Below are positions 19,818 to 55,550 of a DNA stretch of 64,000 nt, in pieces. Under the pieces are notes generated by a model. It had not been told where the DNA came from. It did not search any database and saw nothing but the letters and a program-made list of their open reading frames with translations. The stretch lies in assembly GCF_900095855.1 (NCBI RefSeq), contig NZ_FMIY01000001.1, forward strand, positions 1 through 64,000, read 5' to 3'. Each line of letters starts with the position of its first letter. Positions within the stretch are counted from its first letter, which is position 1. A program made the position numbers and the translations under genes. Source of the stretch: Megasphaera coli (GTDB lineage Bacteria > Bacillota > Negativicutes > Veillonellales > Megasphaeraceae).

Positions 19818-19860
19818 AAAAAGGAAAACGTATCTATATACGTCACGTCGCAATAGATCG

Positions 19861-20030
19861 TTTCACGCTCTGTCCTTTTGCCTGAGAGATAAGAAATACT
19901 GTGTATTTCGTGCACCTTCGGCGCCCGTTAGGGACTCTCCAGAGATATGTCCGCACATGGTCTTCGTCCGTATAGGACACCTGAGAGTTTAACTCCTTCG
20001 GTAGACAGCCGAGTCTTCTCCCACATGCTT
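19861..20030 (-). ncRNA. Tandem glycine riboswitch
   Basis: Two gcvT-type aptamers can be read on the minus strand. The first has GGAGAAGACTCGG, CTACCGAAGGAG and AACTCTCAGG. The second has CTGGAGAGTCC, GCGCCGAAGGTGC and ATCTCTCAGGCAAAAGGACAG. This is the classic tandem layout joined by a short linker. With the terminator just downstream, glycine binding probably prevents termination and switches the Na+/alanine-glycine symporter on, as for most members of this class; the ON sense is family knowledge. Confidence 0.95.
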
Positions 20031-50388: not shown

Positions 50389-50457
50389 TACTGCAATCCC
50401 GTCTATATAAATTGGCAATCATTTCGAGAAATACTAGGTTATTTACATGCATTGCTG

Positions 50458-50463
50458 TATAAT
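50458..50463 (+). promoter_or_regulatory. Possible promoter of the phosphoethanolamine transferase
   Basis: Perfect TATAAT about 47 bases before the chosen start; no convincing -35. Confidence 0.4.
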
Positions 50464-50509
50464 AAGTTCGGTATGTATCGATTTTACCTATTATAAGGAG
50501 CCTTTCTGC

Positions 50510-52345
50510 ATGACACGGACAAGCGCGTTATCTGTACAGGCTGATGCAGGCGCGTATACGAAAAAACGAATTTTCTCGCTAATCACCGTTTTTATTATCA
50601 TTTATGCACTTTGCGTACAATGGCAATTTTTCGTTTCTCTCGGTCTCGGCGAAGACAACATAGCCGATATGATTTGGGGACTTGTTCCGGCTGTCGGCGC
50701 AGTTGTCCTCTCGTTGGCATTATATATAAAAAAACTGTCCTGGCGAAACATCCTGCCGCCGGCAATCACCGGCATATCGTGGATCGTTACGGGACCTCTC
50801 CTCAGTTATAAGACGCTCATAAACGGCAATACTATTTATTTAAATAATATTTACGATATTTATAACGGGCTCTTTCTCTTTGCCGTTCTTTTCTGTCTCT
50901 CCATGGCAGTGAAGCAGTATATTCACCGCGTTATCGGCGCAGCGCTTTTGACAATAATCTATTTTGCGGCCATTTTTGTCAATCTCATTCAATGGGCCTA
51001 TTATGACCTGTACGGTTCCTGCATCACCACATCGGGATCACTCATTCTTTTTCAGACCGGCCCGGCGGAAACGCTGGAATACCTACATTCTCTCGGTCCG
51101 GCCATGATTGCCGGTGCGACCTTTACTTTGCTCGTTATTGTGCTGTTTTTCTTTTTAACGCACTATACATTGCCACCGCTGCCGAAAACAACGGTCTACC
51201 GCAAGATACTGCCCGTTTTATCTCTTCTTATTATCATACCGTCGGTCTGGATGCTCTGCGACGAACTCCTGCCCAACTCTTTCCCCATACGGACCTTTCT
51301 CGACACTAAAGACTACTTGGACCGCTCCCGCCTTTACGCGGCAAACCACGACAGCAAGTTCGCCGCCCTGCAAGCCGTGCAATTGAACCCTGCAATCGGG
51401 CCCAACACGGTCATCGTCATCATCGGAGAATCGGAGACGCGCACACTGATGAACGCCTATAATCCGGCGGCACCGAAAAATACGCCGTGGCTGACGTCTG
51501 TAAAAGACGACTCTCATTTCACCTTATTCACGAACGTTTACAGTTGCGTCTGGTATACGGTTCCCGTATTGGAACACGCCCTGACGGAATCGAATTTCTA
51601 CAATGACAAAGAATTTAACGAATCTATTTCTATCGTTGACATGGCAAAAAAAGCCGGCTATAGGACATATTGGTTCAGTAACCAAGGCTCTGTCGGCGTT
51701 GCGGATACACCCATTTCCCTTATTGCCAATACGGCGGACGTAGCCGAATGGGTCGATAGAGACCTGAAGGAATCCACCTTGGACAGTGCCTTGCTGCACT
51801 TCCTTAAAAATGTCAATCCTAATGAGAAAAATTTCATTGTCCTTCATATCATGGGCAGCCACATTGAATATCGCAACCGCTATCCTGCGGAGTTCCAACA
51901 CTTTAATGACGGCAAGATAAATCAGGAAGCGGACTACGACAATACAATCCTTTATACGGATTGGTTCCTGTCGCAAGTCTTCGGCTACGCCGAGGCTCAT
52001 CTTCACTTGGATGCACTCCTCTATTTCTCCGACCACGGTTCCGACCCGAATATTGCCCGCCAGCCCGACGGCGCAAGCTTCAAGGTCCTGCGCATTCCCA
52101 TGTTCATCTACTTATCCGACGACTACATGCGGCGCAACCCGGAAATCACGGCGGCACTCAAGTCCCATGAAAACGCCTATTTTACGAACGATCTCGTCTA
52201 CGAACTCGTTTGCGGTCTCCTCAACATAAAGTCGCCCAACTACGACGATTCCATCAGTCTCGCTTCGTCTAAGTGGCATTGGGAAAAGAAAGACCTCGTC
52301 ACACGCTTCGGCAAAACTCCCTTAACGGAAGATACGGAATATTAA
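50510..52345 (+). CDS. EptA-like phosphoethanolamine transferase (sulfatase fold)
   Basis: 611 residues. Five membrane helices (about 20-235) precede a periplasmic alkaline-phosphatase/sulfatase-fold domain. The metal-binding and nucleophile region reads IVIIGESETRTLMNAYNP (about 302-319, threonine nucleophile in ETR), and the late metal motif is SDHGSDPN. The enzyme moves phosphoethanolamine from phosphatidylethanolamine, made by the psd/pssA genes of this window, to lipid A or core sugars. That lowers surface charge and often raises resistance to cationic peptides. The ATG follows AAGGAG. The cupin gene starts 14 bases downstream on the same strand. Exact acceptor unknown. Confidence 0.88.
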   Translation: MTRTSALSVQADAGAYTKKRIFSLITVFIIIYALCVQWQFFVSLGLGEDNIADMIWGLVPAVGAVVLSLALYIKKLSWRNILPPAITGISWIVTGPLLSYKTLINGNTIYLNNIYDIYNGLFLFAVLFCLSMAVKQYIHRVIGAALLTIIYFAAIFVNLIQWAYYDLYGSCITTSGSLILFQTGPAETLEYLHSLGPAMIAGATFTLLVIVLFFFLTHYTLPPLPKTTVYRKILPVLSLLIIIPSVWMLCDELLPNSFPIRTFLDTKDYLDRSRLYAANHDSKFAALQAVQLNPAIGPNTVIVIIGESETRTLMNAYNPAAPKNTPWLTSVKDDSHFTLFTNVYSCVWYTVPVLEHALTESNFYNDKEFNESISIVDMAKKAGYRTYWFSNQGSVGVADTPISLIANTADVAEWVDRDLKESTLDSALLHFLKNVNPNEKNFIVLHIMGSHIEYRNRYPAEFQHFNDGKINQEADYDNTILYTDWFLSQVFGYAEAHLHLDALLYFSDHGSDPNIARQPDGASFKVLRIPMFIYLSDDYMRRNPEITAALKSHENAYFTNDLVYELVCGLLNIKSPNYDDSISLASSKWHWEKKDLVTRFGKTPLTEDTEY

Positions 52346-52359
52346 AGGAGATGAAATTC

Positions 52360-52722
52360 ATGAAAAGCTTTGTAAAAAATGAACTGCCCGTCATCAAAAA
52401 AGAAAATGCCTCCGGCGGCAAAGGCTATATCCTGATCAAGCGTCTCCTCGACGAAACGGAATTAAACGGAAAATGCGGGCTTTATGCTCAGGTCACCATT
52501 CCTCCGGGCTGTTCACTGGGAATTCACGAGCACAAAGGTGAAAGCGAAACTTATTACATCCTGTCCGGCCGCGGTACGTATCACGATAACGGCACGGATC
52601 GCCCGATCGGACCCGGCGATGTGACCTTTACTCCCGACGGCTGCACGCACGGACTGGATAATACGGGTGACGAAGATATCGTCTTTATGGCGCTCATTAT
52701 ATTTGACAACCTTCGTTCATAA
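52360..52722 (+). CDS. Small cupin-domain protein
   Basis: 120 residues, a single cupin barrel with SLGIHEHKGESETYYILSGRG (metal ligands His, His, Glu in HEHKGESE, about 52-60) and a second histidine in TPDGCTHGLDNTGDE. Such short cupins are sugar-binding, dioxygenase-like or unknown. The second of two in-frame ATGs is used since AAAGGAG lies 9 bases before it. It is probably co-transcribed with the phosphoethanolamine transferase; a link in function is not evident. Confidence 0.85.
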   Translation: MKSFVKNELPVIKKENASGGKGYILIKRLLDETELNGKCGLYAQVTIPPGCSLGIHEHKGESETYYILSGRGTYHDNGTDRPIGPGDVTFTPDGCTHGLDNTGDEDIVFMALIIFDNLRS

Positions 52723-52780: not shown

Positions 52781-52808
52781 TTGACAACGCAATATATTAT
52801 GCTATACT
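52781..52808 (+). promoter_or_regulatory. Promoter of the small-ORF/structured RNA unit
   Basis: Perfect TTGACA (52781-52786), 16-base spacer, TATACT (52803-52808). A transcript would start near 52815. Confidence 0.75.
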
Positions 52809-52839
52809 GTAGGCAAATAATAGAAATGAGGTGATTCCC

Positions 52840-52953
52840 TTGGAAATAGAACCGGTTAGTGAATTCCCGCGTACGATAAACTATTCCTCTATAGACTCGC
52901 GGGATCACGTTTTGACAGGACACAGCGACACGCAACAGCCTTACAGCCAATAA
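52840..52953 (+). CDS. 37-residue small ORF, acidic (unknown)
   Basis: Starts at TTG, 6-7 bases after GAGGTGA, a strong anti-SD match. The peptide opens MEIEPVSEFPRTINYSSIDS and ends QPYSQ; it is polar and acidic with no membrane segment. The SD region GTGATTCCC can pair with GGGATCAC (52901-52908) inside the ORF, so its own message may hide the start. A competing hairpin frees it. Without comparison to relatives, translation is unproven; it may be part of a structured RNA. Confidence 0.4.
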   Translation: MEIEPVSEFPRTINYSSIDSRDHVLTGHSDTQQPYSQ

Positions 52954-53003
52954 AAGGCGGCATACGTCAAGCCGCAAATAACAAAACAGGAGGTGTACGT
53001 AAG

Positions 53004-53066
53004 GTGAGGCGGTTCGCTCGTCCTTACTTCGTACTCTGCAAAAGAGGATTTGCAGTTAACATATAG
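53004..53066 (+). CDS. 20-residue small ORF, cationic (unknown)
   Basis: Starts at GTG, 10 bases after a perfect AGGAGGTG. The peptide reads MRRFARPYFVLCKRGFAVNI, with five basic and several aromatic residues and one cysteine, so it is cationic and amphipathic. The start codon lies in the arm of a hairpin with the SD just outside. It follows the 37-residue ORF by 50 bases. A toxic or membrane-active peptide, a leader peptide or chance are all possible. Confidence 0.35.
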   Translation: MRRFARPYFVLCKRGFAVNI

Positions 53067-53238
53067 CATCTTAACTGTTTGTTTTCTTGCAGCCGGAAGA
53101 ACGTTATCCGGCAATGCCACTTCTGAGTGTTATGTTATAGCAGAACGTAGTATCATTGCATGTATTCGGTTATAGTGAGTGTTATATGTAGTAAGTCCAT
53201 TATATTAAAGAAGTAATAAGGTTAGGTAATGTATTAAA

Positions 53239-53288
53239 AAGTCCCTTCGGTAAACATATGTCGAGTGTTTGCCGAAGGGCTTCTTTTG
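53239..53288 (+). terminator. Terminator of the structured unit
   Basis: CCCTTCGG/CCGAAGGG stem extended by AAACA/TGTTT and AAG/CTT, then CTTCTTTTGG. Confidence 0.85.
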
Positions 53289-53294
53289 GTTTAC

Positions 53295-53347
53295 AAAGAG
53301 GCCGTAACGCAAACAGTGAAAACTCTCTGCTGCGTTACGGCCTCTTT
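53295..53347. terminator. Bidirectional terminator
   Basis: Perfect 17-bp stem (53295-53311 with 53331-53347) around a 19-base loop, followed by T. It is the end of the sigma-54 activator gene on the minus strand and backs up the structured unit. Confidence 0.88.
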
Positions 53348-53372: not shown

Positions 53373-55406
53373 TTAGTTTTTATTGTCTTTTTTAGAGATA
53401 CCGCAAGCTTTCATCTTTTTGTACAATGTCGGCCTACTGATGCCCAGCTCGTTGGCTACGCGAGAAACATTATATTCATATTGCTGTAAAAGGGCTATAA
53501 GCCTCTCTTTCTCAGCCCCGTTCTTTGCCGACCCCGGCGCTTGCTTTTTCTTTTTTTGGAACTTATCGGGCAAATCACCCAACTCGATACGACCGTTTTC
53601 ACTCAGTATGACTGCGTGCTCAATGACATTTTCCAATTCCCGAATATTTCCGGGCCAGGCATATTCGTTAAATACACGCACTACTTCAGTCGAGCAGGCC
53701 CGTACCATTTTTTCATATTTCCGATTATAAAGATCGATGAAATAATCGGTCAAATATGCAATATCGCCCGGACGCTCTCGCAAAGACGGCAGCATGACTG
53801 TAAAGACATTCAGGCGGTAATATAAGTCGGAACGAAATGTACGGTTTTCCAACTGTTTTTCCAAATCCTGATTGGTAGCGGAAATAATGCGTACGTCAAT
53901 TTTCTTCGCTTTACGGCTGCCGATGCGAACGACCTCTTTTGCCTGTAAGACGCGCAATAAAGTCACCTGCACGTCATAAGGCATATCGCCGATTTCATCA
54001 AGAAACAGCGTGCCGCCGTCGGCCAATTCAAATTTACCGGGTCGACCGTTTTTATCGGCCCCCGTAAAGGCGCCCGGTTCATAGCCGAATAACTCGCTCT
54101 CAATTAAAGCTCGCGGAATAGCGCCGCAGTTAATGGCAATAAAAGGACCGCCTGCACGCGGGCCTGCATTATGTACAGCTTGGGCAAAGAGCTCTTTTCC
54201 CGTACCGCTCTCTCCCAAAAGCAATATAGGCGTATCATGGGCCGCCGCGACTTTGGCAATCCGCTTTACTTCGCTTATTTCTTCAGACCTGCCGATAATC
54301 CTGTCAAACGTATATGTCGCCTGCAAATACACGAGGTTTAACGCGGTTTTGTGAATACTGTTCTGCTTGCAAACTTGAATAATATACTCCGCCCCCTGTT
54401 CATCCGCATCTCCGCCCATCGTATTGACGAACAAATACAGGGAAGAGCGGGTATGATACATGTCCCTGTGTTTCGCCGAATTGGACAGAGCGTATTGGAA
54501 GGTCTTGCCGTCAGCTGTATTTCGCCTGATTATGTCCACCGTAATGTCGGCATCCAAATAAGCAAATACATTTGTTCCGACAACATCCGCCTCTTCTTTT
54601 TTTATTCCCAGGAGTACAACCGCCGCCCGGTTAATCATTTTTATACGGCCTGCATTATCTATATAAATTAAGCCTGAATTTACATTTTCCACAGTGCGCT
54701 TCAGCCTGTGATTCACATGTGTCACGACGGCATTTAATTCCTTCATTCGCAAATTGGCTTCACGCAAACGTATTTGCTGCGAAATAGCTTCTGCCGCAAT
54801 AATAACCAGCCCCAACGTATGGACATGCGAATCCCACCAATGACCGGAAACGGCTAAAAAGCCGATAGGGACCTCTTTATTCAAGTCAATGATCGGACAA
54901 GCCGCACCGGCCAGGTTATCATCGACAGGCGAAGCATGCTCCGTAGCAACAAGCATAAATGGCTTCTTCATTAAATATTCCAAATGGAACAAACCGCAAT
55001 AAGGCACATCACTCCCCCTGTCGGAGCCTTCAACCAAACCCGTTGCCGTCAGCTCTGCCAACATTTCCGGCGACCCTACCAATTTTATAATAACGCCCTT
55101 ATCATCCAACAAGGTCAGCCAAAAACTCTTTTGCTGTAAAAACGAGTGTAATTTTTTCATATACGGAATAGCTACATCCAATAATCGTTTCGACCTCTCC
55201 AGATGTGCTTGCAAATTACGGACCGTCGGCTTTTGAGAATAAGGCTCTCTAAACGGGCTGTTGTATGATAACTTCCATCCTTTCAAAATTTCTTCACGAA
55301 CTCCTGTAATGCCGTCAGCAGACCCTGTTTTAAAATATTGCTCCCGCATTTTGCCTACGTGCAAAATATTTTCCGGTGTAAACAATTTTGCTGTTTCCCT
55401 AGACAT
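53373..55406 (-). CDS. Sigma-54-dependent activator (AcoR/RocR-like)
   Basis: 677 residues. The N-terminal half has a GAF-like sensory part (about 60-200) and a PAS domain (about 210-320). The central AAA+ domain has Walker A GESGTGKELFAQ, the sigma-54 contact loop GAFTGA and Walker B GGTLFLDEIGD. The C-terminal Fis-type helix-turn-helix is NVSRVANELGISRPTLYKKM. There is no receiver domain, so a small molecule is probably sensed. Its target is very likely the BKACE operon lying just upstream on the same strand, which has a -24/-12 promoter and paired operator repeats. The second of two close ATGs is used since AGGAG lies 7 bases before it. Confidence 0.93.
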   Translation of the reverse strand: MSRETAKLFTPENILHVGKMREQYFKTGSADGITGVREEILKGWKLSYNSPFREPYSQKPTVRNLQAHLERSKRLLDVAIPYMKKLHSFLQQKSFWLTLLDDKGVIIKLVGSPEMLAELTATGLVEGSDRGSDVPYCGLFHLEYLMKKPFMLVATEHASPVDDNLAGAACPIIDLNKEVPIGFLAVSGHWWDSHVHTLGLVIIAAEAISQQIRLREANLRMKELNAVVTHVNHRLKRTVENVNSGLIYIDNAGRIKMINRAAVVLLGIKKEEADVVGTNVFAYLDADITVDIIRRNTADGKTFQYALSNSAKHRDMYHTRSSLYLFVNTMGGDADEQGAEYIIQVCKQNSIHKTALNLVYLQATYTFDRIIGRSEEISEVKRIAKVAAAHDTPILLLGESGTGKELFAQAVHNAGPRAGGPFIAINCGAIPRALIESELFGYEPGAFTGADKNGRPGKFELADGGTLFLDEIGDMPYDVQVTLLRVLQAKEVVRIGSRKAKKIDVRIISATNQDLEKQLENRTFRSDLYYRLNVFTVMLPSLRERPGDIAYLTDYFIDLYNRKYEKMVRACSTEVVRVFNEYAWPGNIRELENVIEHAVILSENGRIELGDLPDKFQKKKKQAPGSAKNGAEKERLIALLQQYEYNVSRVANELGISRPTLYKKMKACGISKKDNKN

Positions 55407-55550
55407 AATCATGCTCCTGTTATAATAGCAACAGCCTTTTCCGAATCATACTGCCGTTAATTGAATATAACAGCATCTGCCATCAGTATACTCTAAAAGA
55501 AACAAAGAAATCCACGGAAAACGGTATTTAACTGCGCTCTTCCATGAAAA

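Follow-up and report, generated by a model that had tools for sequence, protein, structure and literature searches.

A putative structured RNA of Megasphaera coli and its relation to a cupin transcription unit

In Megasphaera coli, a locus on the plus strand (52781-53288 of a window of 64,000 nucleotides, the whole stretch of DNA that was analyzed) carries the signals of a transcription unit but no open reading frame (ORF) of ordinary size, which raises the question of what is made from it and where it comes from. The locus was compared with its counterparts in a sample of 15 genomes of the genus, its own included (G000; 1.71 Mb, about 90% complete, with the window on contig 2). We hold, with modest confidence, that it is the orthologue of a unit composed of promoter, leader, cupin ORF, 3'UTR and terminator, in which the ORF was lost while a predicted transcript of approximately 470 nt persisted as a structured RNA that is essentially non-coding and perhaps regulatory through its terminator loop. 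The original prediction for this locus, made from the letters of the window, had described a self-contained unit with built-in control and missed what we regard as the main point, namely this orthology to a cupin transcription unit minus its ORF, with leader and terminator kept.

Signals and coding potential of the unit

The consensus promoter, the strong terminator, the two Shine-Dalgarno (SD) sequences with their tiny ORFs and the two neighboring genes named in the original prediction are all present (Table 1). Its estimate of at least seven hairpins was fair, as the consensus fold with Anaeroglobus geminatus F0357 (G014) comprises 14 helices, and the second start codon does sit in a stem, being mostly paired (mean probability 0.81). 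The whole unit folds at -139.4 kcal/mol (z -4.05), and none of 100 shuffles was equally low; taken alone, the hairpin within ORF1 is a weak signal, with local fold z of -2.6, -0.5 and -0.9 in three species. Promoter-like sites are not enriched in the surrounding 3 kb (five found, 5.0 expected from shuffles). The unit is probably not spacer, as is supported by its conservation beyond neutral sites in one relative and by the covariation of its end hairpin in 12 aligned sequences.

Table 1. Features of the locus and of its surroundings in the window.
Feature	Position	Strand	Remarks
Promoter TTGACA-16-TATACT	52781-52808	+	11 of 12 consensus matches; TG ahead of -10 (extended -10)
Ultra-long SD leader	52821-52838	+	about 15 bp with the whole 16S 3' tail; -19.7 to -19.9 kcal/mol
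SD1	52828-52838	+	
ORF1	52840-52953	+	TTG start at 52840; 37 codons; first codons resemble the lost cupin start (MEIE...)
Hairpin within ORF1	52859-52908	+	3' strand (52901-52908) can alternatively pair with SD1
Apical loop of the ORF1 hairpin, CUAUUCCUCU	52881-52890	+	unchanged in A. geminatus; a single difference in M. micronuciformis
Second SD, AGGAGGTG	52988-52995	+	letters unchanged in A. geminatus
ORF2	53004-53066	+	GTG start at 53004; 20 codons; frameshifted in A. geminatus, nucleotides kept
Long hairpin	53037-53091	+	consensus fold with A. geminatus has 19 bp here; z about -5 in local windows
Hairpin	53092-53112	+	6-bp stem kept, loop diverged in A. geminatus
Terminator hairpin	53243-53279	+	15 pairs; 9-nt loop UAUGUCGAG at 53257-53265; closing pairs C-G and A-U
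Inverted repeat, terminator-like hairpin	53295-53347		between the unit and the convergent gene
Upstream cupin gene	52360-52722		
Convergent sigma-54 activator gene	53373-55412		closest family PrdR, proline reductase regulator (NF041552); 395 bits, under the cut-off of 795
Sulfatase-family membrane protein gene	50447-52345		resembles phosphoethanolamine transferase CptA, with a score under the curated cut-off
Glycine riboswitch aptamer	19860-19952	-	56 bits

The short ORF, an SD that can pair with part of it and the competing hairpin bring to mind a leader or attenuator that regulates a gene downstream in cis, and a long ORF following the unit is indeed co-directional in five cupin-bearing genomes. 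The pairing of SD1 with 52901-52908, in which the original prediction saw built-in control, exists and competes with the hairpin at 52859-52908, but its energy is no better than that of shuffles (p 0.26); it can form in three species and exceeds chance in none of them (p 0.22 and 0.09 in the two relatives), and SD1 sequestration was rejected as a conserved switch. Moreover, a strong terminator closes the unit in M. coli, A. geminatus and Megasphaera micronuciformis F0359 (G004), and the gene that follows is convergent, not co-directional as a leader-peptide attenuator would require. An attenuator is consequently extremely improbable. The gene convergent to the unit in A. geminatus is one that we take to resemble a proline-reductase component.

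A second alternative is a small-protein gene, in which ORF1 and perhaps ORF2 are translated and the peptide is the product. The SD is extremely strong, the start is kept, and the ORF1 products of M. coli and A. geminatus align with a score of 114 against 20 when shuffled, as any conserved DNA would. The 18 nucleotide changes in ORF1 between these two species fall on codon positions one to three as 4, 5 and 9, so that third positions change most; nevertheless, this excess is not significant (p 0.11), and 9 of the 12 changed codons alter the residue or the stop, so that the synonymous bias proposed as the mark of a peptide is not supported. ORF2 undergoes a one-base frameshift in A. geminatus while the nucleotides past the shift stay nearly the same, and it is thus probably not a conserved peptide. 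Neither ORF has a match in Pfam or NCBIfam up to E 1, in agreement with the earlier statement that the unit holds no ordinary gene. In the other nine of the ten pairs among the five cupin-less units described below, alignment of the ORF1 products does not rise above that of shuffles (p 0.12 to 0.98). Translation may occur, but the sequences do not support conservation of a peptide beyond the pair of M. coli and A. geminatus, and we consider a small-protein gene unlikely. The strongly hydrophobic peptide typical of type I toxin-antitoxin systems is not found, the average hydropathy of the ORF1 products ranging from -0.72 to -1.39 in the five units and that of ORF2 being 0.22.

Cupin-bearing and cupin-less units in the genus

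A DNA search of 60 genomes, the own one included, returned beyond the window the unit of A. geminatus (80% over 409 query nucleotides) and the leader of M. micronuciformis. Within the genus sample, an intact cupin of 108 amino acids stands behind a like promoter, leader and start context in nine of the 15 genomes (G003, G005, G006, G007, G008, G009, G011, G012 and G013), followed by a 3'UTR, which measures 193-212 nt ahead of the terminator in six of these nine units, and by the terminator. Units devoid of an intact cupin were found in five genomes, those of M. coli, A. geminatus, M. micronuciformis, G002 and Veillonellaceae bacterium Marseille-P2974 (G001). A search of all 15 genomes found no unit in G010, and the unit is therefore dispensable in one reduced genome. 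M. cerevisiae DSM 20462 has a unit identical to that of G011, and Megasphaera sp. UW_MP_MEG1_1 has one identical to that of G007. In the four pairs that have comparable genes, the 4-fold sites of the cupin coding part agree somewhat better than the 4-fold sites of the gene that follows.

The M. coli unit shares with the cupin units of the genus the promoter, leader and start context as well as a terminator with a 9-nt UGUC loop. A profile of the cupin-bearing units matched it at promoter and leader (unit nucleotides 3-77; nhmmer, E 3.8e-6) and at the terminator (E 8.5e-5), and matched A. geminatus at the same two places (E 1.3e-6 and 8.4e-4); in G002, too, leader and terminator were the only parts that matched. 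The same profile search gave zero matches in M. micronuciformis, whose unit is tied to the family by its leader, its terminator and its position after a cupin. An intact cupin ORF is absent from the M. coli unit, for which the best six-frame match of the cupin HMM had an E of 2.9 and lay on the reverse strand. Likewise, cupin remnants were sought within the bodies of the M. coli, A. geminatus, M. micronuciformis and G002 units, and the six-frame HMM search gave nothing better than this E of 2.9; a likeness of ORF2 to YYILSGEGEY, noticed by eye only, was dropped. The unit of Marseille-P2974 aligns end to end with cupin units (592 nt, E 6e-27) and its cupin frame is broken, and by this alignment it is an intermediate in which the lost gene is still visible. 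A mobile origin was also considered and rejected: the unit has no match in plasmids or phages, and two short patterns had no exact match in IMG/VR.

On an rpoC tree of 14 of the 15 genomes (G003 left out), the cupin-less M. coli, A. geminatus, M. micronuciformis and G002 form one clade (100/100) and Marseille-P2974 falls elsewhere. The cupin-less label requires two changes on this tree, and a single change suffices in 0% of 200 bootstrap trees; the strongly supported branches by themselves force just one change, and a single loss is compatible with the unsettled fork that holds Marseille-P2974. Cupins are an ancient family, for which reason two losses are read as likelier, and the tree likewise favors two losses over one, so that the cupin was probably lost twice in the genus.

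M. coli, A. geminatus and M. micronuciformis have a cupin paralogue just upstream of the unit, in line with a gene of the sulfatase family, and the unit of G002 is adjoined by a cupin as well; with a paralogue next door, the unit's own cupin could become redundant. The same circumstance would suit a transcribed pseudogene, in which the cupin decayed after duplication while expression signals and terminator linger with no function. Cupin debris in Marseille-P2974, a unit body that cannot be recognized between A. geminatus and M. micronuciformis, and a tree with which a single cupin loss is compatible all agree with such a decay. However, leader and terminator loop are kept in all five cupin-less units even though neutral sites are near saturation. 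Between M. coli and A. geminatus, the identity at 4-fold sites is 40% in the sulfatase gene (223 sites) and 53% in rpoC (372 sites), and that of the neighboring cupin DNA is 67%, whereas the unit is 75.6% identical over 513 aligned positions (43% with shuffled letters), ranging from 0.92 down to 0.52 per 100-column window. This patchiness is as expected under uneven constraint. We regard the pseudogene as a serious, if improbable, explanation, and the orthologue retained as an RNA remains our preferred reading.

Conserved ends and a changing body

In the original prediction compensatory changes were named as the support to be expected for an RNA, and they are clear in the terminator. An alignment of 12 of the 14 units (the near-duplicates G003 and G013 were dropped) has 91.7% of its cells paired, and both partners have changed in 10 of the 14 pairs. 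Its covariation score of 0.62 exceeds those of slid versions (at most 0.23) and of shuffles (at most 0.22; none of 500 reaches 0.62); a version slid by +1 has nine pairs with changes on both sides, near the real ten, but far lower fractions of paired cells and far lower covariation. While the stem changes, a 9-nt loop closed by A-U on C-G is present in 14 of 14 units and carries UGUC in 13, the exception being UGUA in G008. The covariance model of this terminator (R1) has its best match at this locus in 14 of the 15 genomes, which, as 12 of these units were used to build R1, shows that no genome holds a rival hairpin rather than that the hairpin is present; the M. coli terminator, one of these 12 sequences, scores 50.7 bits.

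Convergent neighbors in M. coli, A. geminatus and M. micronuciformis, as well as a longest downstream ORF that is convergent in Marseille-P2974, G002, G007, G008 and G011, would also fit a shell kept for its terminator alone, for instance to separate convergent genes. Nevertheless, the function of a terminator does not require a fixed loop sequence, and here a loop that hardly varies sits on a covarying stem; in addition, the leader is kept as well and the neighbor is not convergent in five cupin-bearing genomes. A mere terminator shell is hence very unlikely, and from the near-fixation of the loop on a covarying stem we infer that the loop has a function of its own.

Pairing of the loop elsewhere in the same RNA was considered and discarded, as a consistent partner is lacking in the 14 units. 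With up to one mismatch, the loop motif has off-locus matches in Marseille-P2974, M. micronuciformis, G005 and G007. R1 gave many further weak off-locus matches and a second model, R2, matched in six genomes of other genera; at the six places inspected by eye, none of the off-locus matches had a 9-nt loop. A second terminator of G007 (C33:18075-18116) has an 8-nt loop, UGUGUCCA, and the closing bases CA/UG of the conserved one.

At the other end of the unit, the leader faces the 3' tail of the 16S rRNA, GGATCACCTCCTTTCT, which is present twice in the M. coli genome behind what we take to be the 16S end motif. In each of the 14 units, leader and tail pair at an energy between -18.8 and -22.9 kcal/mol. 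When every second position of the window was scanned for 18-mers holding GG or GAG, the M. coli leader was the strongest 16S-tail site found on either strand (next best -18.6), and the sites upstream of 57 long open stretches of the window reach -16.2 at best, with a median of -8.8. Of 12 stretches that match the leader pattern, four belong to records of Clostridioides difficile. One of them (L050, 1410-1466, minus strand), presumably located behind the end of a DnaJ gene, has a promoter, a similar SD, an ORF of 38 codons, a long tail with no obvious gene and an end hairpin, but its terminator loop differs from that of the genus; this likeness is perhaps convergent and may reflect only complementarity to the 16S rRNA.

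Between these two ends, the body is far less uniform. Of the 103 pairs in the consensus fold of M. coli and A. geminatus, 89 are unchanged and 14 differ in ways that keep the pairing, 10 of them in one partner and 4 in both; none is broken. Its z is -7.8 (shuffles within column classes), a value obtained from two sequences only and to which the terminator adds over the whole length; locally z is near -5 at 53037-53112 and near 0 in several windows. The rpoC tree groups A. geminatus with M. micronuciformis (90/90), yet the unit of A. geminatus resembles that of M. coli: its identity to the M. micronuciformis unit is at the shuffled level (0.430 against 0.428), and that between M. coli and M. 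micronuciformis is 0.483 against 0.424. Either M. micronuciformis lost the body or M. coli and A. geminatus exchanged it, so that the body either changes rapidly in one lineage or was exchanged in another. Conservation of the body thus derives from one species pair, and the unrecognizable body of M. micronuciformis tempers the proposal of an RNA. The letters by which the UUCCUCU hairpin loop could face AGAGGA (53043-53048), a pseudoknot candidate, were seen by eye in three species.

The cupin-bearing units have a block of their own in the 3' part, GAGGUUAAAGAUACCAGAACC (GAGGUUAAAGWWACCAGAACC), present in six of the nine and in Marseille-P2974. Among 380 genomes of the class, these seven have it with up to one mismatch, each in a single copy; it has diverged in G009, G012 and G013, is partial in G002 and is not recognizable in M. 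coli (searched with up to one mismatch), A. geminatus or M. micronuciformis. For this reason the latter three, together with the near-duplicates G003 and G013, were left out of the 3'-module alignment, which holds 9 of the 14 units. R2 scores 39 bits on M. coli (53198-53285), below the score of R1 for the terminator alone, and misses M. micronuciformis. In the six of nine cupin-bearing units compared, the 3'UTR outside the terminator is on the whole little structured (z -1.1; lowest single window -3.3). The cupin 3'UTR of the genus (L025, L031, L032 and L035) carries conserved, mostly unpaired blocks, GAGGUUAAAGAUACCAGAACC and UAUGAAUCCUAUAAC, plus UUCGARCUUUUCGAA, and by sequence the cupin 3'UTR is a candidate element in its own right.

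Possible function and comparable systems

The covariance search against Rfam 15 bears out the claim that no known RNA family fits: the unit has no match at the gathering threshold, and tRNAs and the glycine riboswitch are the only families within the window. Relaxing the limit to E 5 brought up two miRNA models for the unit (17.6 and 19 bits), both well short of threshold. The search also covered relatives; a match of ncr1175 to a cupin-unit locus (L031) reached 32.8 of 60 bits, corresponded to two GC-rich hairpins and was rejected. The M. coli genome, about 90% complete, holds no match for Hfq or CsrA, and a pairing RNA would consequently work independently of them or with another chaperone.

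Bacterial small RNAs derived from mRNAs, in particular from their 3'UTRs, are a known class. Like the unit, they comprise an mRNA 3' end and a Rho-independent terminator with conserved unpaired sequence. Their host ORF is usually kept, or the small RNA acquires a promoter close to the 3' end; in the unit, by contrast, the protein part is expendable and the whole transcription unit, including promoter and SD, is kept while only the ORF is lost. RNAIII of Staphylococcus is a dual-function RNA of about 500 nt with a short ORF and many hairpins, and like the unit it has a hairpin loop rich in pyrimidines that can pair with SDs, but for the unit no conserved peptide was found beyond one species pair, and it matches no Rfam family at threshold. 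The STAB-SD of Bacillus cry genes, a 5' mRNA stabilizer with a strong SD, shares with the unit a very strong SD near the 5' end. In contrast to STAB-SD, the leader is complementary to almost all of the 16-nt 16S tail, and the ORF behind the leader changes or is lost. Small RNAs from degraded genes are known in principle (PMC5896051), and there, as in the unit, a coding locus becomes an RNA locus. The unit differs in that the gene is a chromosomal one, for a cupin, whose loss probably happened twice within the genus while the ancestral leader and terminator loop were kept. No treatment of small RNAs of Megasphaera or its relatives was found in the literature searched, as judged by titles and abstracts.

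In the orthologue that we propose, the unit would be transcribed, and its ultra-long SD would place a ribosome, or a 30S subunit, close to the 5' end, so that the RNA may be protected or coupled to translation. The body would then fold, and the exposed UAUGUC terminator loop would meet a partner RNA or protein and act in trans. In the sub-clade of M. coli, the hairpin loop CUAUUCCUCU / UUCCUCU may provide a second site for pairing with a partner. We may also hypothesize a genus-wide RNA family in which the message is replaceable, with anti-16S leader and terminator loop under selection and the part between them, be it a cupin, a broken cupin or a new hairpin body, turning over. Such a 30S-tethered regulator would dock on the 16S 3' tail by its leader, while its terminator loop would recruit an RNA or protein partner to the ribosome, but this wider proposal is unlikely.

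What appears to be new in the retained unit is a chromosomal message minus its ORF, probably lost twice, with both ends fixed. To our knowledge, the birth of regulatory RNAs from messages has mostly been inferred from isolated cases. Here, one locus in one genus would present three stages, an intact cupin message, a message with a broken cupin and a message-sized RNA devoid of a cupin, all with their ends kept. If these ends function on their own, their function is to be expected already in the cupin-bearing species, and an ultra-long SD with no conserved product would offer a natural test of the roles that SD sequences may have besides the start of translation.
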